Part shown: piece after piece, positions 3,003-17,293 of the stretch | Numbering within the stretch: the first letter of the stretch is position 1 | How the letters are laid out: every line of letters begins with the position of its first letter | IMG/VR virus record: IMGVR_UViG_3300037119_001821 | Coordinates: 1 to 23,411 of that record | Length of the DNA: 23,411 bases | DNA from: a virus | Direction: 5' to 3' (one strand) | Notes under the pieces: model-generated | The model's database searches: none | Told to the model about the DNA's origin: nothing | The model's input: the letters and a program-made list of their open reading frames with translations, nothing else | Program-made: the position numbers and the translations under genes

Positions 3003-3329
3003 ATGGATGCAATTGATCATCTGCAAGAGCTGCGAGAGCTAAACGAACGGATCATCTGCACGGCGACATTCTATGTCCAGTGTCGGGAGTGCCAGCATCG
3101 GAACAAGGTTAATCTTGTTGTGCCGGTGAACCCTCAACTCTATCTTGAGGATCATGTGATGCGCGAATCGTTGCTGAATGCCCGGTTCTCTCCGTCTACG
3201 TGCAAAGCGTTCGCTGAAGACTTAGGTTGTCCAGCCTGCTCGGCACATGATTTCGAGGTTGGCGAGGTGACCCGTCTTCCTGCTTACCTCGATGGAGATC
3301 CGATGCGCTTGCCGGTGGACTTGGAGTGA
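3003..3329 (+). CDS. Hypothetical Cys-containing protein
   Basis: The 108-aa product starts at an ATG directly after the stop of the minor capsid gene. I do not recognise the family. Visible features are CRECQH near residue 27 and GCPAC near residue 76, two CxxC pairs about 45 residues apart that could together bind one zinc. The N-terminus is helical (LQELRELNERI). It is the first of four short ORFs filling the space between the minor capsid gene and the HNH gene. The overlapping stop/start with the next gene supports co-translation. No function can be assigned. Confidence 0.65.
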   Translation: MDAIDHLQELRELNERIICTATFYVQCRECQHRNKVNLVVPVNPQLYLEDHVMRESLLNARFSPSTCKAFAEDLGCPACSAHDFEVGEVTRLPAYLDGDPMRLPVDLE

Positions 3330-4090: not shown

Positions 4091-4840
4091 CTAACTGAAG
4101 AATCCTGTTTTCTGCTCGATGTGCAGCGCCCGGTGGCACTCCTCATGGAGCGTCAAGCCGTTGCTGACCTCGAAGCGAAGTTCCGGACGGCGCGACCACA
4201 GTTCGATGTGGTGGGCATGCAGATCGCCGCCCCGCCTGCTGCAACTCTGACAAGTCCAGTTGTCTCGGGTGAAGACGGCGGTACGCCAGGCTTTGTACTG
4301 CCAGCCGGATCGGTCCTGCATCTCGCTGCGTTGAGAAATGCCCCGGCAAGCATCGGAGCAGTACAATCCGTGCCCATCTCGAATGGTGTACGGCTTGACG
4401 TAGAACACCGCCGAGCAGATTCGACAGGTGCGGTCTTCGCCGGTTCTCGGGGTCGGCGCTCGGCGCGACCGCCATTCTCGGTAGTCTCGCTGTTGCCAAT
4501 AGCAGGTCGCTGTGCAGTACGCACTTTGACCGCGTTTCAGGTTGGCGGCGCTGACGTAGAATGCCACTCCACAACCACGGCAGGTTCGTTCCTCGCCGCG
4601 AAGTTGTGCGATGCCTTGGCAGTCCCTAGAGCAATATCGTCCGCCGCCCTTTGTGATGAAGCTGGCGCGAACGGTGAACGCTTTTTGGCATTGGGCGCAG
4701 ATACAAGCAACCCGGTTCGCCTGCCAACGGTTCCGTGCCGAACAGCCTCGCGAACAGAAGGTTCCCTTGCCTTTGCGAACCTGACGAGCAAGAGGAACAA
4801 AGAGCGCGCCGCACTCGGCACAGGTACACTGTGTGGGCAT
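4091..4840 (-). CDS. HNH endonuclease with four tandem zinc knuckles (free-standing homing type)
   Basis: The product is 249 aa on the strand opposite to the operon. The C-terminal domain is a standard HNH nuclease: WRTAVFTRDNWTCQSC (C197, C200), HAHH (H210, H211), a conserved N227, and EECHRALH (C235, H236, H240). Ahead of it lie four knuckles with identical spacing CX2CX18CX3C: C7/C10/C29/C33, C48/C51/C70/C74, C87/C90/C109/C113 and C139/C142/C161/C165. They probably bind DNA or stabilise the protein through zinc. The ATG at 4840 is preceded by GAGGAG (4849-4854 on this strand) at good spacing. Free-standing HNH genes in phage structural clusters usually act as homing endonucleases that cleave a nearby site in related phages. 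Opposite orientation and flanking hairpins fit an inserted element. Confidence 0.88.
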   Translation of the reverse strand: MPTQCTCAECGALFVPLARQVRKGKGTFCSRGCSARNRWQANRVACICAQCQKAFTVRASFITKGGGRYCSRDCQGIAQLRGEERTCRGCGVAFYVSAANLKRGQSAYCTATCYWQQRDYREWRSRRAPTPRTGEDRTCRICSAVFYVKPYTIRDGHGLYCSDACRGISQRSEMQDRSGWQYKAWRTAVFTRDNWTCQSCSRRGGDLHAHHIELWSRRPELRFEVSNGLTLHEECHRALHIEQKTGFFS

Positions 4841-7305: not shown

Positions 7306-7821
7306 ATGCCCGTTATTGAAGGCGTGCAGGCTCGGGGAATCTCGGGCGCTGGTGTGCCATCAGCAGGGACGAACGCGGTACAGACGCTGACCATCGGCGG
7401 CACCCCGACTGCCGGGTCGTTCCAGCTTATTCACGAGGGGTTCGTTTCCGCTGCGATCACTTGGTCGGCGGTCAACGCTACCTTGCTGGCGGCGATGAAC
7501 GCGGCGATGGATGCAATGCCGAGCCTGGGTACGGCTGGCTGCGTTGCGACGGCCGGCACTCTGACCGCGGGTATCGGCACGGTCACCCTGACTTTTGGTG
7601 CGACCCGTGCGAAACAGCCAGTTGGGATCTTCACGTTCATTAATGCCCTGACCGGCACATCTCCGACCCTGGCCGTAGCGAACACCACGCCGGGCGTCTT
7701 AGCGGTTGGGCGGGGTATGGGTATCGGCCAGGTCTACATCGACACTACGGCCGGGAAGGCGTATATCAACACGGGCACTTCACTTGTTCCAGTTTGGACA
7801 GTTGTTGGTGCACAAACGTAA
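7306..7821 (+). CDS. Structural protein with a tail-tube-like accessory beta domain
   Basis: The product is 171 aa, from an ATG shortly after AAGGAG in the end of the previous gene. Residues 25-130 follow the pattern VQTLTIGGTPTAGSF...AITWSAVNATLLAAMNAAM...TVTLTFGATRA...LTGTSPTLAVANTTPG. The same layout is found inside the tail tube protein at 16790-17109, so the operon carries two copies of this module. The last 30 residues (GQVYIDTTAGKAYINTGTS) look like the end motif of phage fibre or head-associated proteins. It is probably exposed on the virion head; the exact role is unknown. Confidence 0.65.
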   Translation: MPVIEGVQARGISGAGVPSAGTNAVQTLTIGGTPTAGSFQLIHEGFVSAAITWSAVNATLLAAMNAAMDAMPSLGTAGCVATAGTLTAGIGTVTLTFGATRAKQPVGIFTFINALTGTSPTLAVANTTPGVLAVGRGMGIGQVYIDTTAGKAYINTGTSLVPVWTVVGAQT

Positions 7822-8153: not shown

Positions 8154-8756
8154 ATCGCCGTCACTGCCAAGGGCTACACCTCCGCCACCAAGGTAGCTCT
8201 CCTGCTCAGCACGGAGGGTGAGTCGGCGTTGACCATCAGCCAGATTGACCGCATGAACGGCGCGCTCGAGGCGGCTGAGCAGTGGATCGATGGGTACACC
8301 GGGCGAGCCTGGCTGACCGGGAGCCCGGTCGTGGGCGAGCGGCATGCTATCGAGCAAGCCAAGGTCTGGCTGAAACAAAAGCCAATCACGGCGGTGAGTG
8401 CGGTCCGGATGGGGGGGCTCTTCGAGACGGCGACACTCTTGACGGTTACCACCGATTACGTCGTTGATGCTGCGCGCGGCCTGATCACCTTCCGTACTCA
8501 GACACGGAGTGATGCTCAGGCATCGGTCGACTACACGGTGGCGCAGACGGTCCCGGCGGACGTGACCGAGGCGGCCGGATTGATCGTAGCTGGGTGGCTG
8601 GGGTCGGCGAGTCTTGCGACTGGTGCGGCCGGCACGTTCAAGTCGATCACCACGGATGGCCAGCAGCTCGTCTACCGCGACCCGTCGACGATATCCACGG
8701 TCTACGTGACAGTGGAGCCGCTACTGCGCCGCCACTGCCGGCCGGTTCTGGTTTGA
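8154..8756 (+). CDS. Head-tail adaptor, HK97 gp6-like
   Basis: The protein resembles the gp6-like head-tail connector family, which forms a ring under the portal. It has a helical N-terminal part ISQIDRMNGALEAAEQWID followed by GYTGRAW, a classic motif of this family, then a beta segment with VTTDYVVDAARGLITF. The start is a problem. The frame is open from 8151, just after an in-frame TAG, and residues upstream of the TTG at 8229 (GYTSATKVALLLS) look like part of the domain. The only suitably placed codon is ATC at 8154, directly before GCC. TTG 8229, with GGAGGGTGAG upstream, is the conservative alternative and gives 175 aa. Confidence 0.75.
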   Translation: MAVTAKGYTSATKVALLLSTEGESALTISQIDRMNGALEAAEQWIDGYTGRAWLTGSPVVGERHAIEQAKVWLKQKPITAVSAVRMGGLFETATLLTVTTDYVVDAARGLITFRTQTRSDAQASVDYTVAQTVPADVTEAAGLIVAGWLGSASLATGAAGTFKSITTDGQQLVYRDPSTISTVYVTVEPLLRRHCRPVLV

Positions 8757-8815: not shown

Positions 8816-9436
8816 GTGCGTTTTTCGGACACGGCCGTTCAGCGCAAATTGAACGCCCTTGATGAATCGGGGGGCGCCGGCGTTGGAGCGACGCACGGCA
8901 GCTTGCACAGCGCTTATTCCTCCACCGGCACGAACGAGTTGACCGGTGGCTCGCCGGCATATGCCCGCAAGGCGGCCACCTGGGCGGCTGCATCGGGTCG
9001 GTCAAAGGCTACCTCTTCCTCGCTGGTCTTCGACGTGGCGGCCGGCTCGACCGTCCGCTGGGTTGGCATCTGGGACGCCGTGAGCGCCGGCAACTTCCTC
9101 GGCATGACACCGAACGGAGGAGGTATCCCCGAAGCGTTTGCGGTACCCGACGCGACCAACGACATTCTGGAGGCGCCAAGCCACGGATTCAGCAACGCCA
9201 ACATGGTCGTGGTCTGGACGGTACCAGGAGTATCGCTTCCCACTGGTCTAGCTGAGGGCACGGTCTACCACGTCCGGGATGTGACGACCGACGATCTGAA
9301 GCTCGCGGCAACTGTCGGTGGGGCAGCCATCGACATCACGGCGGTCGGCGCCGGGTTCCTCCAGAAGATTGTTGAAGAGACGTACGGGTCCCAAGGCACA
9401 CATACGGTCACGACGCTCACCATGTCTGAAGATTAG
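8816..9436 (+). CDS. Beta-rich phage structural protein, tail-fibre/decoration type
   Basis: The product is 206 aa and starts at GTG after AAGGAG. The pattern HGSLHSAYSSTGTNELTGGSPAYARKAATWAAASGRS, with the following VFDVAAGSTVRWVGIWDA, is a recurrent module in phage structural proteins with an LTGGSPAYARK core (quoted in parts). Residues 105-190 add a second beta domain typified by HGFSNANMVVV and GTVYHVRDVTTDDLKLAAT, which resembles repeats in fibre-like virion proteins. It opens the accessory block inserted in the connector region. Virion surface location is inferred; the exact position on head or tail is not visible. Confidence 0.6.
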   Translation: MRFSDTAVQRKLNALDESGGAGVGATHGSLHSAYSSTGTNELTGGSPAYARKAATWAAASGRSKATSSSLVFDVAAGSTVRWVGIWDAVSAGNFLGMTPNGGGIPEAFAVPDATNDILEAPSHGFSNANMVVVWTVPGVSLPTGLAEGTVYHVRDVTTDDLKLAATVGGAAIDITAVGAGFLQKIVEETYGSQGTHTVTTLTMSED

Positions 9437-9450
9437 TCCAAGGAGTCTTT

Positions 9451-10629
9451 GTGTTTCGCTTTTCTCGTCACCTGATTGTCATTGCAGTGATCGCATTGAG
9501 TGTTTGGATTGGCCACGGCTTTCTTCCCCCCGACCATTCGCACAACCCGGCCGATTACCTCACGGTGGTCGGCGACCATATGGCACAGCATGCCTCGGTA
9601 GCTGAGGCTGCACCTCTCGCGGCTCAGCATGAGGGCGTGGAAGTCTGTACCGATCACGACAAGACGGTATGGCACCCGCTCGTCAAGCGGGACGCGGCCG
9701 GGGCCATTACCTGCACCTACACCCACGAGCACCACGACGACCCGTCGACCGCTGACGACATCTTCGGCCCGGTCGGCTCCTGGTACGGCGGCACGCAGAG
9801 CATTTCGTACCCCTGGCAGACCTCAGGCGCCGCTGGGCTGGAGAACGACGCCAAGCACGAGGGCTACAAGTGGTATGTCGCGAAGGACATCAATCTGCCC
9901 TGTGCCCCCCATCAGTACAACGGCTGCATCATCGGTTACCGAGCTCAGGTCCACGCGATGGGTTCTGCCTCTGACGCGATCGTGCGGTTCCACAGTTTCA
10001 ACGAAGAAGTCCTGGTTGAGATGAACGGCCAGCGGGGCATCTTCCGCCTCGGCGGCCATATGGACACCGGGCACCTGGCAATGTCGGTTAATGGCGGGGG
10101 AGGTCTCCACGTCTGTCCGGCATTGCCGGATAACCCGCCCACCTTCAACTGCAACTCGGGACCGTTCCGAGAGACGGGCAGCGCGAACGTCCCGGCACCC
10201 TATAAGAACCACAACCAGTATTTCACGCCCTGGTATGCAGCCCCGTTAGGGCCGCAACTGGAGATGTGGGGACCAGTCGACTACACCAACCCGTCGAACC
10301 AGTTGTTCTACGGCCCCGGCGGGCAGCCGATGAACAATTCCCGTGGGCGCATTGGCGACATGAACGTTATAACGACGTACAGCTACCTGAACCCGTACCG
10401 AGACGCCAGCGGGAAGGTCACGTTTTCCGGATACACCAACCGCGCCCGACAGTTAGCCCCGGGCTGCACCGCGATCGGGAGCGACTGCTTCCCGGTCAAG
10501 TACGAGGCTGTCCCCAATGGCAGCTTTATGAAGACCGCTGAGCGGAATAGCGCCGGGCAGATTCTTCCGCCCAAGGAGTTTGATGTCTTCGGGCCAAACG
10601 GGAAGAGCATGATCCGGTTCCCGAACTGA
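9451..10629 (+). CDS. Exported His-rich protein of unknown function
   Basis: The product is 392 aa, from a GTG preceded by AAGGAG. Residues 7-22 form a hydrophobic segment after basic residues (signal peptide or membrane anchor), with no clear cleavage motif. The segment after it is rich in His: DHSHN, CTDHDKTVWH (C66) and TCTYTHEHHDD (C88), suggesting metal binding. The remainder contains several further Cys and beta-type sequence with GHMDTGHLA and GYTNRARQ stretches. Soluble virion proteins do not carry export signals, so this may be a lysogeny-expressed or late-expressed surface protein, or a gene acquired from a bacterial host. I recognise no enzyme family and assign no function. Confidence 0.6.
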   Translation: MFRFSRHLIVIAVIALSVWIGHGFLPPDHSHNPADYLTVVGDHMAQHASVAEAAPLAAQHEGVEVCTDHDKTVWHPLVKRDAAGAITCTYTHEHHDDPSTADDIFGPVGSWYGGTQSISYPWQTSGAAGLENDAKHEGYKWYVAKDINLPCAPHQYNGCIIGYRAQVHAMGSASDAIVRFHSFNEEVLVEMNGQRGIFRLGGHMDTGHLAMSVNGGGGLHVCPALPDNPPTFNCNSGPFRETGSANVPAPYKNHNQYFTPWYAAPLGPQLEMWGPVDYTNPSNQLFYGPGGQPMNNSRGRIGDMNVITTYSYLNPYRDASGKVTFSGYTNRARQLAPGCTAIGSDCFPVKYEAVPNGSFMKTAERNSAGQILPPKEFDVFGPNGKSMIRFPN

Positions 10630-10639
10630 TTGACGACTG

Positions 10640-11170
10640 ATGGACTGGCCGAGCACCCCGAACCTGCCTGACCCGCTGGTGACCATCTCGCCCCTTGCGG
10701 TTTGCTCGCTCGCTGGCCAGGCTGCCGGGTCGTTTACCATCGGTGCGGTTGCTTATCCTGGCGCGAACACGGCGTTTTTTGTCCCCTTTCGACTCTCCCG
10801 AGCAGTGCTGTTTAAACTGCTCTTCGCCTGGAATGGGGCGGCGGTTTCCGGGAATATCGACGTGGGGATTTATTCCAGGGACGGAACACGGCTGGTTTCG
10901 AGCGGCTCGACTGCTCAGGCTGGCACGAGCGTGATCCAGACGTTTGATGTCACGGACACCCTGATTGGCCCTGGTGTCTTCTACCTGGCGATAGCCATGG
11001 ACAACGGCACCGGCCAAATTACCCGGTTTGTCCCTGGACTTGCGGTTGGGCGTCTACTCGGCATGGCGCAGATGGCAACGGCCTTTCCTCTCCCGGCTAC
11101 CGCGACCCTCGCCGTGTTCACCACGAATTTCGCGCCGATTATCGGGGCTACCACCAGGACGGTTGTCTGA
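10640..11170 (+). CDS. Tandem paralogue 1, beta-rich structural protein
   Basis: The product is 176 aa from an ATG 10 bases after the previous stop. It is clearly homologous to the next gene along its whole length: YPGANTAFFVPF versus YPAANTAYFYPF, SGNIDVGIYSRDGTRLVSSG versus SGNLDIGLYAEDGTRLVSTG, and GPGVFYLAIAMDN versus GPGVFYLALAMDN. The predicted fold is a beta-sandwich, as in capsid decoration or fibre-head proteins. The family is unknown to me. The stop overlaps the start of the paralogue. The role is inferred from setting only: probably a surface component of the virion. Confidence 0.6.
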   Translation: MDWPSTPNLPDPLVTISPLAVCSLAGQAAGSFTIGAVAYPGANTAFFVPFRLSRAVLFKLLFAWNGAAVSGNIDVGIYSRDGTRLVSSGSTAQAGTSVIQTFDVTDTLIGPGVFYLAIAMDNGTGQITRFVPGLAVGRLLGMAQMATAFPLPATATLAVFTTNFAPIIGATTRTVV

Positions 11171-11724
11171 TGAGTGATTGGTCAGCCAACATACTCAACC
11201 CGTTGGAATTTGTGACCCCCTGGTCACTGGAAAGCATCGGGATTGGGCTGACGTTCATTGGCAGCCTTGGGCGGTTCAGCAATGTGGCCAGCGCGGTCTA
11301 TCCGGCGGCCAATACCGCCTACTTCTATCCGTTCTCGATCGCTGCGCCCAGTTTGATCACGAAGCTCGCCACGTCCAATGGGACGACCGCCTCGGGCAAT
11401 CTGGATATCGGGTTGTACGCGGAGGACGGGACCAGACTTGTTTCGACCGGGTCAACGGCCCAAGCTGGCACGAGTACGTTGCAGGTCGTTGACATCACGG
11501 ATGTCCTACTCGGCCCAGGCGTGTTTTACCTGGCACTGGCGATGGACAATACAACCGGGACAATTTTCCGCTGCGCTCCTGGCGGTGGAGTCACCCAATA
11601 TATGCAGTTGCTCGGCATCGCGCAGATGGCTTCAGCCTTCCCTCTGCCGGATACCGCGACGTTTGCGGCTATGGCCGCGGATACCATACTCGGGGTTGGT
11701 GCAGCGATGAGGGTACTGGTGTGA
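11170..11724 (+). CDS. Tandem paralogue 2, beta-rich structural protein
   Basis: The product is 184 aa and starts on the last base of the previous stop. It is the duplicate of the preceding protein; identity is highest in the middle (DGTRLVSTGSTAQAGTS is nearly the same in both) and lower at the N-terminus, which carries a longer WSLESIGIGLTF region. Conserved LGIAQMASAFPLP near the C-terminus is also shared. Retention of both copies suggests separate roles or a hetero-oligomer. The stop overlaps the GTG of the following gene. Confidence 0.6.
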   Translation: MSDWSANILNPLEFVTPWSLESIGIGLTFIGSLGRFSNVASAVYPAANTAYFYPFSIAAPSLITKLATSNGTTASGNLDIGLYAEDGTRLVSTGSTAQAGTSTLQVVDITDVLLGPGVFYLALAMDNTTGTIFRCAPGGGVTQYMQLLGIAQMASAFPLPDTATFAAMAADTILGVGAAMRVLV

Positions 11725-11984
11725 CACTTCGAGTAAACGCGGTGCTGACGTTTGCCTCGTATGAGGTGCAGGACGACGGCATCATCTTTCGATTTACCTG
11801 TGCCGATCCTGGTCCAGGTATGGAGTCCGATTACTACGTGAAGCTGACGGATGCTGAACTGGCCGCGACCACCACCACGCCCCAACTCCGGACGGCGCTC
11901 ACGAACAAGCTGACGCGGAAGATTCGCGCGAACGGGATCGCCTCGCGGCTCGATGCGTTCATCGGGAACACCATAACGGTCTAG
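11721..11984 (+). CDS. Hypothetical 87-aa protein
   Basis: The GTG start overlaps the stop of paralogue 2 (GTGTGA). The product has a beta-type first half (VLTFASYEVQDDGIIFRFTC, then DYYVKLTDAELA) and a helical second half (LRTALTNKLTRKIR). I recognise no family. The small size and position suggest a minor virion or assembly protein. The gene end is followed closely by TAGGAGG, which serves the next gene. Confidence 0.5.
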   Translation: MTLRVNAVLTFASYEVQDDGIIFRFTCADPGPGMESDYYVKLTDAELAATTTTPQLRTALTNKLTRKIRANGIASRLDAFIGNTITV

Positions 11985-11992
11985 GAGGTACG

Positions 11993-12346
11993 ATGGCTCT
12001 CCCCGCGCTCCTAGCAAGCGGCACGCTGAGCACCACGGTTGACACGACTGAGCGGAGCATCACGACAACCACGGCGGTTGGCACCGTGCGGCTTGAGGTG
12101 GATCTGAACGCCATGGCCGCCGGCGACGTGGTGGAGCTGCGCGCGAAAAAGAAGCTGCTGACCGGTGGTACCCAGCGCGGCTATGCGCCTGGCATTTTCT
12201 ACGGCGCTCAGCCGGCTGACGACCTGGTGGCCCGGAGTCAGGACATTCCGAACACGAACACGGACACCGCTTCGGTCGAGTTCACGATTATTCATCGGTT
12301 TGGAACGTCGCGCTCGCTCCCATGGTGTTTGTACCAGTGGAGTTAG
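11993..12346 (+). CDS. 117-aa beta structural protein with replaced 3' end
   Basis: The ATG follows a strong TAGGAGG. The protein has the layout of a common phage structural module: MALPALLASGTLSTTVDTTE, a TTTAVGTVRLEVDLNAMAAGD strand pair (two parts), VELRAKKKLLTGGT, and an ending GTSRSLPWCLYQWS. It is complete in reading frame. However, codons 109-117 and the stop (12317-12346) have a second, differently coded copy at 13073-13102, just behind the downstream homing endonuclease. The present gene end was therefore probably supplied by the endonuclease insertion, leaving the original end stranded. Cys in place of the family-typical Ala (PWC versus PWA) may mark the foreign end. Function is unknown; probably on the virion surface. 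Confidence 0.65.
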   Translation: MALPALLASGTLSTTVDTTERSITTTTAVGTVRLEVDLNAMAAGDVVELRAKKKLLTGGTQRGYAPGIFYGAQPADDLVARSQDIPNTNTDTASVEFTIIHRFGTSRSLPWCLYQWS

Positions 12347-12352
12347 TACCCA

Positions 12353-12361
12353 TGATATACT
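12353..12361 (+). promoter_or_regulatory. Possible extended -10 promoter for a leaderless homing endonuclease mRNA
   Basis: TGATATACT contains TGn followed by TATACT, five of six matches to TATAAT, and lies six bases before the endonuclease ATG. That is the spacing at which transcription would begin on the ATG itself. The ATG has no Shine-Dalgarno, which fits a leaderless transcript. No good -35 at normal distance was seen. Confidence 0.35.
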
Positions 12362-12367
12362 TGGATC

Positions 12368-13072
12368 ATGGATTGGTCATACATAGCGGGGTACTTCGAC
12401 GGCGAGGGTTGCGTCTGGATTGGGCGTACCGGCCCGAAGCGATCGTTCAGGGTAACGATGACGTGGGCGAATTCGCATCGCGAGAGTTTGGAAGCGATGC
12501 GGTTGTTCATGGACTGTGGATATCTGAAAGCTCATGGTCACAAGGACAGGGTTCCTCGTTACAAGCAGATGTACAACCTCGTGATCTCTCGGCGAGCAGA
12601 TATGCTCCGGGTCGCGAACGCTATGCTGCCGTATGCGATCGTCAAGCGCGACAAACTTCTCAGTCTTCTCGAAACGCTTGCACAGATGCGGGATGCGTCT
12701 CCGGGCCGCGGCAATCTAGCCGCGGCTGGGGCAGAGGAAATCCGCCGCTTGTACTGGGAAGAGCAGATGGCCGATTGGGATATCGGTCTGCGCTTTGGTG
12801 TAACCCGGGAAGCTGTAAAGCAGTACATGCGCCGGCATGGAATCCCTCGGCGTGTGAGGAAAGCAGCAATGCGTATGGCGGCGTCCAAACGACCGCCGCT
12901 CGATCCAATCGTACAGGCCGAGCGCAATGCCAAGATCAGCGCAGCGAAGAAAGCACACTGGCAGGATCCAGAATACCGGGGGTTGGCACTTGTCAGGATT
13001 CGAGCTGCTCAGCCGAAGCGACTTGCAGACATGCGGGCAAAACGCGCATTGGAGCAAACCATCCCCGACTGA
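12368..13072 (+). CDS. LAGLIDADG homing endonuclease with HTH and NUMOD-like tail
   Basis: The product is 234 aa. Residues 5-14 (YIAGYFDGEG) are a clear LAGLIDADG motif with the catalytic acidic residue. A single such domain occupies about residues 1-108, so the enzyme would act as a homodimer. Residues 123-162 (EEIRRLYWEEQMADWDIG, then FGVTREAVKQYMRRHGIPRR) are a helix-turn-helix of the sort that adds DNA binding. KISAAKKAHWQDPEYR near 189-204 matches the NUMOD3-type helix typical of homing enzymes. The gene follows the 117-aa gene by 21 bases, too little for an intron, and is flanked by two versions of that gene's 3' end. It is a free-standing homing gene inserted in a virion gene. Confidence 0.9.
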   Translation: MDWSYIAGYFDGEGCVWIGRTGPKRSFRVTMTWANSHRESLEAMRLFMDCGYLKAHGHKDRVPRYKQMYNLVISRRADMLRVANAMLPYAIVKRDKLLSLLETLAQMRDASPGRGNLAAAGAEEIRRLYWEEQMADWDIGLRFGVTREAVKQYMRRHGIPRRVRKAAMRMAASKRPPLDPIVQAERNAKISAAKKAHWQDPEYRGLALVRIRAAQPKRLADMRAKRALEQTIPD

Positions 13073-13102
13073 CTCCCTTGGGCACTTTATCAATGGACGT
13101 AG
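13073..13102 (+). pseudogene. Stranded original 3' end of the 117-aa structural gene
   Basis: Immediately after the endonuclease stop, 30 bases encode LPWALYQWT plus TAG. The intact gene ends LPWCLYQWS plus TAG (12317-12346). The peptides match at seven of nine positions, with conservative changes at the other two, yet only 20 of 30 bases agree and Pro, Leu, Tyr and Gln all use different codons. This is the signature of a gene end recoded by the inserted element, with the old end left behind. It has no start and is not expected to be translated. Confidence 0.8.
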
Positions 13103-13113
13103 GACTCTAGGCT

Positions 13114-13854
13114 ATGCCGGCATCAAGGCGGCGCAGCGGCGTTCACTTCTACGGCACCCAGGCGGGTGGCGGTCCCGCCACGTCCGGGACCGCGCAGATG
13201 GGGTCATTCGGGCGATTCTCCGTCGCTGCCACCAAAGCCTCCGCCAACGCCGCGTCGCTCCGTGGAACAGCCGACCTAGCGTCAGCGACGGTCAAGGGAG
13301 GGCTTGCCACCTCGGCACTCAGGGCGCTCGGAAAGTTGGTGAGTCAGGCTGCCAAGGCATCGAGCGCGGTGGCTGGTGAGCGGAGCACGGGTCTCCTGGC
13401 AGCCGTGGCGACGACCGAGCGGGCCGCCACGGCAATCCTCAGAGCGCTGGGCAAGCTCTCGGCGACCTCTGGTGCGTTGCCGCCGGCCACATCTGGCGTT
13501 GCGGCCCTATCATCCCGCGCCTGGATCATGGCAAGCTCTGTCAAGGGCGGTCTCAGTACGGCTGCTCTAGCGGCCATGGCACGCCTCGCAGGGGCTGGTG
13601 CCAAGGGCGGGACGGCTCAGGGCCGCTTGTCAGCAGCGTCTCGGTCCAGCAGCACGGCCCGGCATGATGCGACCGCCATAGCTGCCTTCCGGGCGTACCC
13701 GAGGCTCTCCGTGGTGGGGGTGACGGGGCGGTCCGGAACCGTGAACTTCTATTCTCGCGGCCGTGGCGCCACGATCATTGGGGTGGAGTTTCAGCACGGC
13801 AGCCTGGTGCTCACTGACCGCCTGGTCGGCGGCCTGACCGTGTCGGATCGGTAG
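13114..13854 (+). CDS. Ala-rich repeat protein, possible fibre or whisker component
   Basis: The product is 246 aa and very rich in Ala, Ser and Gly. A degenerate unit recurs about every 41 residues: ATVKGGLATSALRALGKL (58-75), TTERAATAILRALGKL (100-115), SSVKGGLSTAALAAMARL (141-158), STARHDATAIAAFRAYPRL (180-198), and a weaker first copy around 23-36 (TSGTAQMGSFGRFSV). The N-terminus (SGVHFYGTQ) and C-terminus (GTVNFYSRGRG, then VEFQHGSLVLTDRL) are beta-type caps. The repeats could form a stalk or helical bundle. I know no family match. The start is 11 bases after the stranded gene end; the Shine-Dalgarno is weak. Confidence 0.6.
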   Translation: MPASRRRSGVHFYGTQAGGGPATSGTAQMGSFGRFSVAATKASANAASLRGTADLASATVKGGLATSALRALGKLVSQAAKASSAVAGERSTGLLAAVATTERAATAILRALGKLSATSGALPPATSGVAALSSRAWIMASSVKGGLSTAALAAMARLAGAGAKGGTAQGRLSAASRSSSTARHDATAIAAFRAYPRLSVVGVTGRSGTVNFYSRGRGATIIGVEFQHGSLVLTDRLVGGLTVSDR

Positions 13855-15955: not shown

Positions 15956-17293
15956 GTGCCGGGTGAAATTTGGCGAGGCGAAGTAAGGGTTGCTAAAGAG
16001 GTAACCGCTGGCTTAGCTGTATCCCCTGCGACGCGCAAGCTCTACCTCATGAACCCGGTCTTGACCCCGGCGCTTGAGGTCACGGCCAACGAGTTCATGA
16101 CGGGGACGCGTGACAACGTCCGGTCAATCTCGCTCGGCTCAGAGGAAGTCAGCGGCGGCGGGGAGTTCCCACTCTCGGCCGATGAGATCATCGAGCCGTT
16201 GCTGATCGGCGTGAACGGCGGCGTAACCCCAACAACCCCGACCGGGGCCACGAACGGGCGCCTTTGGACCTTCAAGCCTGGGACCACGCTCGATTCGATG
16301 ACGATGGAATGGTTCGACGGAGTGAGGACCTGGCAGGGCGCCGGTGTCCAGGTGAACAGCCTGACCATCGCCGGGAACGTGCGCTCGCGAAACACGGTCA
16401 CGATGGACCTCTTCGCGCAGCGGCTAGTTTCGACTGGCGGCCTGTCGGGTTCACCAACCGACCGTACCCCCTCGGTGATCCAGGGGTTTGAAACCCGGGC
16501 CTACGTCGACGCGGCCGGGGTTCCGCCAGGATCAAGCCTGATCCCTGGCCAGTTGGTGAACTGGAGCGTTGCGCTAAATAACCAGCTCGGACGCGAGTAC
16601 ACGGCCGACAACACCCGGAACGCCAACAACATTAATATTGGCGCCCTGCAGATCGAGGGTGCAACGTTCCTGATGCGGGGCATCCCGGCGTCAGTAGCGA
16701 CCGAGTTTGCGAACTGGCGGGCTGGCACGCTGCGAACCATCCGCCTGGAATTCGGCAACAACGACGCGATCACGGGGGAAACCCCGGTCAACGAGGTCCA
16801 GACCGTCACGCTGACCGGGACGCCGGCGGGCGGGTCTTTTGTCGCATCCCTGTTGGGTGCAGTCACCGCACCAATCGCATTCAACGCGACCGCGGCGGCC
16901 GTTGCATCAGCGTTCAATACGGCACTAACGACGGCTATCCCGTGGATCACCGGCACTCCGCTGGTTGGCACGGCCGGTCCGCTCCCCGCGTCGGTCACAC
17001 TGACGTGGTCTGGTACATCGGTAGCTGGTCTCGATGGTCCACTACCGCTGTTGGTTACCAACTCGTTGACCGGCGGCACGTCTCCAACTGCCGTGTTTGC
17101 CACAACCACACAGGGCTATCTCGGCAAGCGCAAGATCATGCTTGACCTACCGGGCGCCTGGACCGCGGCCAACCTGGGCCAGACCAATGAAGGCGCGCGA
17201 GCGGTCGAGTTCACGGCCCGGTACGTCTATGACCCGGTGCTGGCCGCGGGTTTACAGCTTCTGGTTCTGAACAGTCGCACGGCGGCCTGGTAA
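15956..17293 (+). CDS. Major tail tube protein with inserted beta domain
   Basis: The GTG is preceded by CAGGAGG, and the product is 445 aa. The N-terminal part (ATRKLYLMNPVLTPALEVT and following), with a strand-rich core up to about residue 277, and the C-terminal part (KIMLDLPGAW, then EGARAVEFTARYVYDPV) fit siphophage tail tube proteins that stack as hexamer rings. Between them, residues 278-385 form an extra module (EVQTVTLTGTPAGGSF and following) homologous in layout to the protein at 7306-7821. It sits in a loop of the tube and would project from the tail surface. Position directly before the tail assembly chaperones supports the call. Confidence 0.8.
   Translation: MPGEIWRGEVRVAKEVTAGLAVSPATRKLYLMNPVLTPALEVTANEFMTGTRDNVRSISLGSEEVSGGGEFPLSADEIIEPLLIGVNGGVTPTTPTGATNGRLWTFKPGTTLDSMTMEWFDGVRTWQGAGVQVNSLTIAGNVRSRNTVTMDLFAQRLVSTGGLSGSPTDRTPSVIQGFETRAYVDAAGVPPGSSLIPGQLVNWSVALNNQLGREYTADNTRNANNINIGALQIEGATFLMRGIPASVATEFANWRAGTLRTIRLEFGNNDAITGETPVNEVQTVTLTGTPAGGSFVASLLGAVTAPIAFNATAAAVASAFNTALTTAIPWITGTPLVGTAGPLPASVTLTWSGTSVAGLDGPLPLLVTNSLTGGTSPTAVFATTTQGYLGKRKIMLDLPGAWTAANLGQTNEGARAVEFTARYVYDPVLAAGLQLLVLNSRTAAW

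Follow-up and report, generated by a model that had tools for sequence, protein, structure and literature searches.

The window analysed here is the whole of a 23,411-bp virus record in IMG/VR (IMGVR_UViG_3300037119_001821, positions 1 to 23,411) and contains the structural region of a tailed phage, with portal, protease, capsid and tape-measure-like genes. Within it, the 3′ end of a small gene, here called X, is present twice, once as the end of X itself and once directly behind a gene for a predicted LAGLIDADG endonuclease (Table 1). The next gene starts 11 bp past the downstream copy, and sequence search gave no relative of its product. A 262-aa open reading frame in another frame (12322-13110) was set aside as a chance product of high GC content.

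Table 1. Features at the X/endonuclease junction, in window positions.
Feature	Coordinates	Strand	Description
Gene X	11993..12346	+	117 aa, interrupted host gene; ORF with TAGGAGGT ribosome-binding site
Upstream (in-use) copy of X 3′ end	12317..12346	+	LPWCLYQWS-stop; family end motif
Spacer, 21 bp	12347..12367	+	Between X stop and endonuclease gene
LAGLIDADG homing endonuclease gene (predicted), single-motif	12368..13072	+	234 aa; IAGYFDGEG motif intact
Downstream copy of X 3′ end	13073..13102	+	LPWALYQWT-stop; without start codon, stops separate copy from X
Next structural-region gene	13114..13854	+	246 aa, repetitive, Ala/Gly/Ser/Thr-rich, begins MPASR

The region from 8816 to 13854 forms a module of ~5 kb made up of the 9451 protein, the 10640 and 11170 genes, X, the endonuclease and the repetitive 246-aa gene. 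It is flanked by connector-type genes at 8229 and 14110, and these two are adjacent in relatives L027, L029 and L030. The genes at 10640-11170 and 11170-11724 are paralogues in tandem that share 47% identity, and pairs of this kind also adjoin X relatives in L001, L010 and L013. Elsewhere in the window, the small gene that follows the capsid gene (7306-7821) shares a domain at ~40% identity with the C-terminal part of 15956-17293, which encodes a 445-aa tail-tube-like protein. A second homing-type gene, of the HNH class, with many CxxC motifs and a weak IscB-like HNH match, lies on the opposite (minus) strand at 4091-4840, between the genes at 3329 and 4932, and among the capsid relatives is present only in L022. 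A duplicated gene end was looked for around this second homing gene and none was found.

The upstream copy of the X end reads CTCCCATGGTGTTTGTACCAGTGGAGTTAG and the downstream copy CTCCCTTGGGCACTTTATCAATGGACGTAG, the first base of the latter directly following the endonuclease stop. Between the two ends, 7 of 9 residues and 20 of 30 bases agree; Pro, the second Leu, Tyr and Gln are each encoded by different codons in the two copies. An earlier reading of this DNA from its letters alone (hereafter the sequence-only reading) had reported both ends at these positions, with gaps of 21 and zero bases to the endonuclease gene and with the same matches and recoding; all of this was reproduced. None of 200,000 shuffled versions of the downstream stretch reached the BLOSUM score of the pair (51; best shuffle 29), and the second-best place for the X end in the six frames of the window scored 21; chance resemblance of the two ends is excluded. 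The insert is 756 bp long, of which 51 bp are not endonuclease. This length is divisible by 3 and keeps X, the endonuclease gene and the downstream copy in a single frame, interrupted by stops. When the empty site was joined and searched for a palindrome, none was significant.

Thirteen IMG/VR contigs were found to encode a relative of X, at most 47% identical to it. Alignment of their 3′ ends, which the sequence-only reading had proposed, placed the natural gene end at a shared motif, GTxRxx[P]Wxx, with which all 13 close at the same place as X, and both repeated segments are therefore 3′ ends of X. X is complete at 117 aa with the family-type end, the upstream copy closing the host reading frame. 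Among the DNA stretches examined, a nuclease gene after X was absent from all 13 relatives, as were both copies of the end without the endonuclease, an arrangement that the sequence-only reading had named as evidence against an insertion. Relatives of X were absent from INPHARED (as were relatives of the 11170 gene and of the L001 protein) and from two scans of 84,980 prokaryote genomes. A pattern scan of IMG/VR for PWxLYQW(S/T)-stop gave no match, and there was therefore no donor or close uninserted relative to compare.

AlphaFold predicts a beta-sandwich for X (pLDDT 85), in which residues 108-116 form the last strand. The repeated peptide corresponds to residues 109-117 and thus to that strand, so that truncation of X would be expected from an insertion that brought no substitute end. 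Structure searches with the model gave weak matches only, one of them to a phage cement protein (E 0.013). The label of virion gene given to X by the sequence-only reading is thus plausible from its position and from the beta-sandwich model, but was not proved by these weak structure matches.

The protein encoded between the two ends looks like an apparently intact LAGLIDADG protein, in keeping with its first assignment, on which Pfam, PHROG and the structural model agree. It matched Pfam LAGLIDADG_3 (E=1.7e-4, missing the curated cut-off by 0.2 bits) and PHROG 5046 (E=6e-12), and its model (pLDDT 84) has the I-CreI/I-CvuI fold (E about 1e-7) with the alpha-beta-beta-alpha-beta-beta core of the class. 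In an alignment of 41 sequences, A7, G8, D11, G12, E13 and G14 of the IAGYFDGEG motif were invariant, and the motif acid is kept. Residues 121-179 matched PHROGs 7545 and 8446, which are HNH homing families. The helical, HTH-like tail of ~120 aa (12728-13070) is common to HNH homing endonucleases, a domain swap between nuclease classes.

A hairpin at 12351-12372 (CCATGAT, 8 nt, ATCATGG), formed by the spacer and the first bases of the gene, contains the endonuclease start codon. Its significance is modest (z about -2.2; equal folding in 7 of 200 shuffles). The hairpin over the start codon would hold endonuclease expression low, as described for T4 homing genes (PMC2988022). The same bases are also a 22-bp interrupted palindrome of the length of an I-CreI-type target, so that either a translational brake or an operator is possible.

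The uninserted arrangement is seen in a distant relative, contig L010, which is the nearest syntenic one. Two genes of the 10640/11170 type precede its X, and 10 bp past the X stop, with no insertion, comes a gene for a repeat protein whose sequence begins VPAGS. The spacing after the X end is alike (10 bp in L010 versus 11 bp after the downstream copy in the window), and the 13114 gene holds the place that the repeat-protein gene has in L010 directly after X. The L010 gene (1177-3006), in place of the repetitive 246-aa gene of the window, encodes a 609-aa protein of repeated Pro/Arg-rich units, and a 435-aa repeat protein with GQATETDTAQ units is encoded nearby in L013. The L010 junction aligned to the downstream copy with a score of 24 and to the upstream copy with a score of 5; for the part after the stop, the downstream score was reached by 18 of 500 shuffles and the upstream score by 361 of 500. 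The nearest X relatives (41-47% identical) are about equally like both copies, with base matches to the two of 16/30 each for L010 and 15 versus 17 for L001. The sequence-only reading had expected an uninserted relative to resemble the downstream copy and to run straight into the next gene; the straight run was found in L010, but the greater likeness of its gene end to the downstream copy was not. Which copy is native rests on position, because no close uninserted relative was found (none above 47% identity), and from position we infer that the upstream end replaced the downstream one. Capsid relatives were unusable as uninserted controls, as the whole 8816-13854 module is missing from them.

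Taken together, the locus is probably the product of a free-standing homing gene that inserted in the 3′ end of X, replaced that end and displaced the old one. The donor DNA would have consisted of the last X codons of another phage plus the endonuclease gene. A break near the end of an uninserted X, made by the nuclease or by chance, would have been repaired by copying the donor from inside X through the endonuclease stop, with the left side guided by X homology and the right side rejoined at the CTCCC common to both copies or by end-joining. The upstream copy would thus have come along with the endonuclease gene. The hybrid X would now close with the donor version of its last beta strand and still be functional, and the recipient's own last nine codons would have moved ~750 bp downstream, where they would be an untranslated relic adjoining the start codon region of the next gene. 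As one base in three differs between two ends that encode a near-identical peptide, the occupied allele probably does not carry a match to the nuclease target; immunity is thus suggested by the 10 base differences, and homing activity is presumed. We give about an even chance to the more general proposition that mobile endonuclease genes of phages bring along a recoded version of the last strand of their target, by which the target is kept working and made uncuttable.

Two X genes could once have stood in tandem; the endonuclease gene would then have entered the body of the second or taken its place, leaving only the last nine codons. This origin has a parallel in the neighbouring genes, which are tandem paralogues with counterparts in related modules, and for that reason it keeps a small share of the probability; the divergence between the ends (10 of 30 bases) would suit paralogues as well as a foreign donor. 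It would, however, require an in-frame deletion ending exactly at the endonuclease stop codon, and no second or tandem X was found at any locus examined, the 13 of the family included. We regard it as rather unlikely.

The roles of the two ends could also be reversed: the upstream end would be native, and the endonuclease gene and downstream end would have been imported together, for instance through recombination with a phage in which the insertion was already present. The upstream copy has the better codon fit to the phage: it stands at 17% among 9-codon windows and the downstream copy in the lowest 2.6%, which would argue slightly against the downstream copy as native and is opposite to expectation. 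The difference is, however, based on 7 informative codons, and a fit as poor as that of the downstream copy occurs in 3 of 25 ordinary gene ends of the window. An imported untranslated end would serve no function, and the downstream copy lies at the normal distance from the next gene, as the X end does in L010; a reversal of roles is accordingly judged unlikely.

An assembly chimera of two related phages, joined at the X end, has in its favour that the junction is known from one metagenome contig, the identical sister contig L022 stopping at about window position 9320, short of the X region. Such a chimera would leave unexplained both the intact endonuclease gene between the ends and the tight spacings of 21 bp and 0 bp, and because the anatomy is so tight we consider an assembly error very unlikely. 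Removal of the 756 bp from RNA or protein as an intron or intein, joining X to the downstream copy, would agree with an insert that is a multiple of 3 and with flanks that match at the join but can practically be dismissed, as the sequence-only reading had done, given that X is already complete upstream, that in-frame stops stand at 12344, 12353 and 13070, that the 51 bp outside the ORF leave no room (no Rfam intron match and no ribozyme core were found), that pairing of the two boundaries is not unusual (z -0.2), and that no intein end motifs were seen.

Phage homing endonucleases usually lie between genes, reside in introns or inteins, or split genes in two. The insertion of a free-standing homing gene together with a substitute gene end, favoured here, would give such a gene another harmless way into coding sequence, with a self-contained cargo of nine codons, and would be gene-end replacement by homing outside mitochondria. 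The system is very compact (9 codons, 756 bp), and self-immunity by recoding is directly testable in it; the 3′ ends of phage genes beside such homing genes may be foreign. In a screen of 79 related LAGLIDADG loci (window counted), the end of the upstream gene was repeated right after the nuclease stop in one, the window itself; a higher-scoring repeat in L008 was rejected as off-frame, of low complexity and away from any gene end. A search of the open-access literature with few terms found no phage case of a substitute gene end.

Among phage systems, the closest comparison is with the free-standing homing genes of T4-like phages, as described in a review (PMC2988022), such as SegF at soc/56, SegG at 32/59 and MobE at nrdB/nrdA. 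As in the window, a free-standing nuclease gene lies beside its target gene with no intron, and some start sites lie in RNA hairpins or overlap the upstream gene; a further feature of these genes is spread with co-conversion of flanking sequence. In contrast to the window, their nucleases are of the GIY-YIG or HNH class, and the homing genes are intergenic or divide a gene into two functional parts (Aeh1 nrdA-mobE, T4 gene 60-mobA); a term search of the review gave no mention of a duplicated gene end (PMC2988022). The homodimeric LAGLIDADG endonucleases I-CreI and I-CvuI resemble the protein of the window in predicted fold and in having a single motif, but are encoded in group I introns and are without the helical tail of ~120 aa.

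Substitute C-terminal ends with mobile ORFs have been described for Allomyces macrogynus atp6 and for atp6, atp9, cox2 and nad3 of Glomus sp., with further mitochondrial cases in Rhizopus atp9 and Mortierella cox2 (PMC3630166), and related C-terminal duplications in Endoconidiophora (PMC6279837). In Glomus atp9, an inserted C-terminal end of 51 bp is followed by the mobile ORF and the native end comes right after the last base of that ORF; in Glomus, native ends are nearer to uninserted relatives than inserted ends are (PMC3630166). The likeness to Allomyces atp6 proposed in the sequence-only reading holds for the anatomy, which matches the Allomyces/Glomus pattern (PMC3630166) in that the 3′ end of the host gene stands on both sides of the nuclease ORF. 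There as here, a LAGLIDADG (or, in mitochondria, GIY-YIG) ORF lies in the 3′ part of a gene, a completing end lies upstream and a second end downstream, and the protein is conserved and the DNA diverged. DNA identity between the two ends is 63.5% in Glomus atp6 and 67% in the window, and in Glomus atp9, as in the window, the downstream end abuts the ORF. The window differs in its phage setting, in the length of the end (9 codons versus 17 in Glomus atp9), and in that X is a minor gene, whereas the mitochondrial hosts are essential respiratory genes. Substitute-end insertion is already known from fungal mitochondria, and the phage would be a new setting for it.
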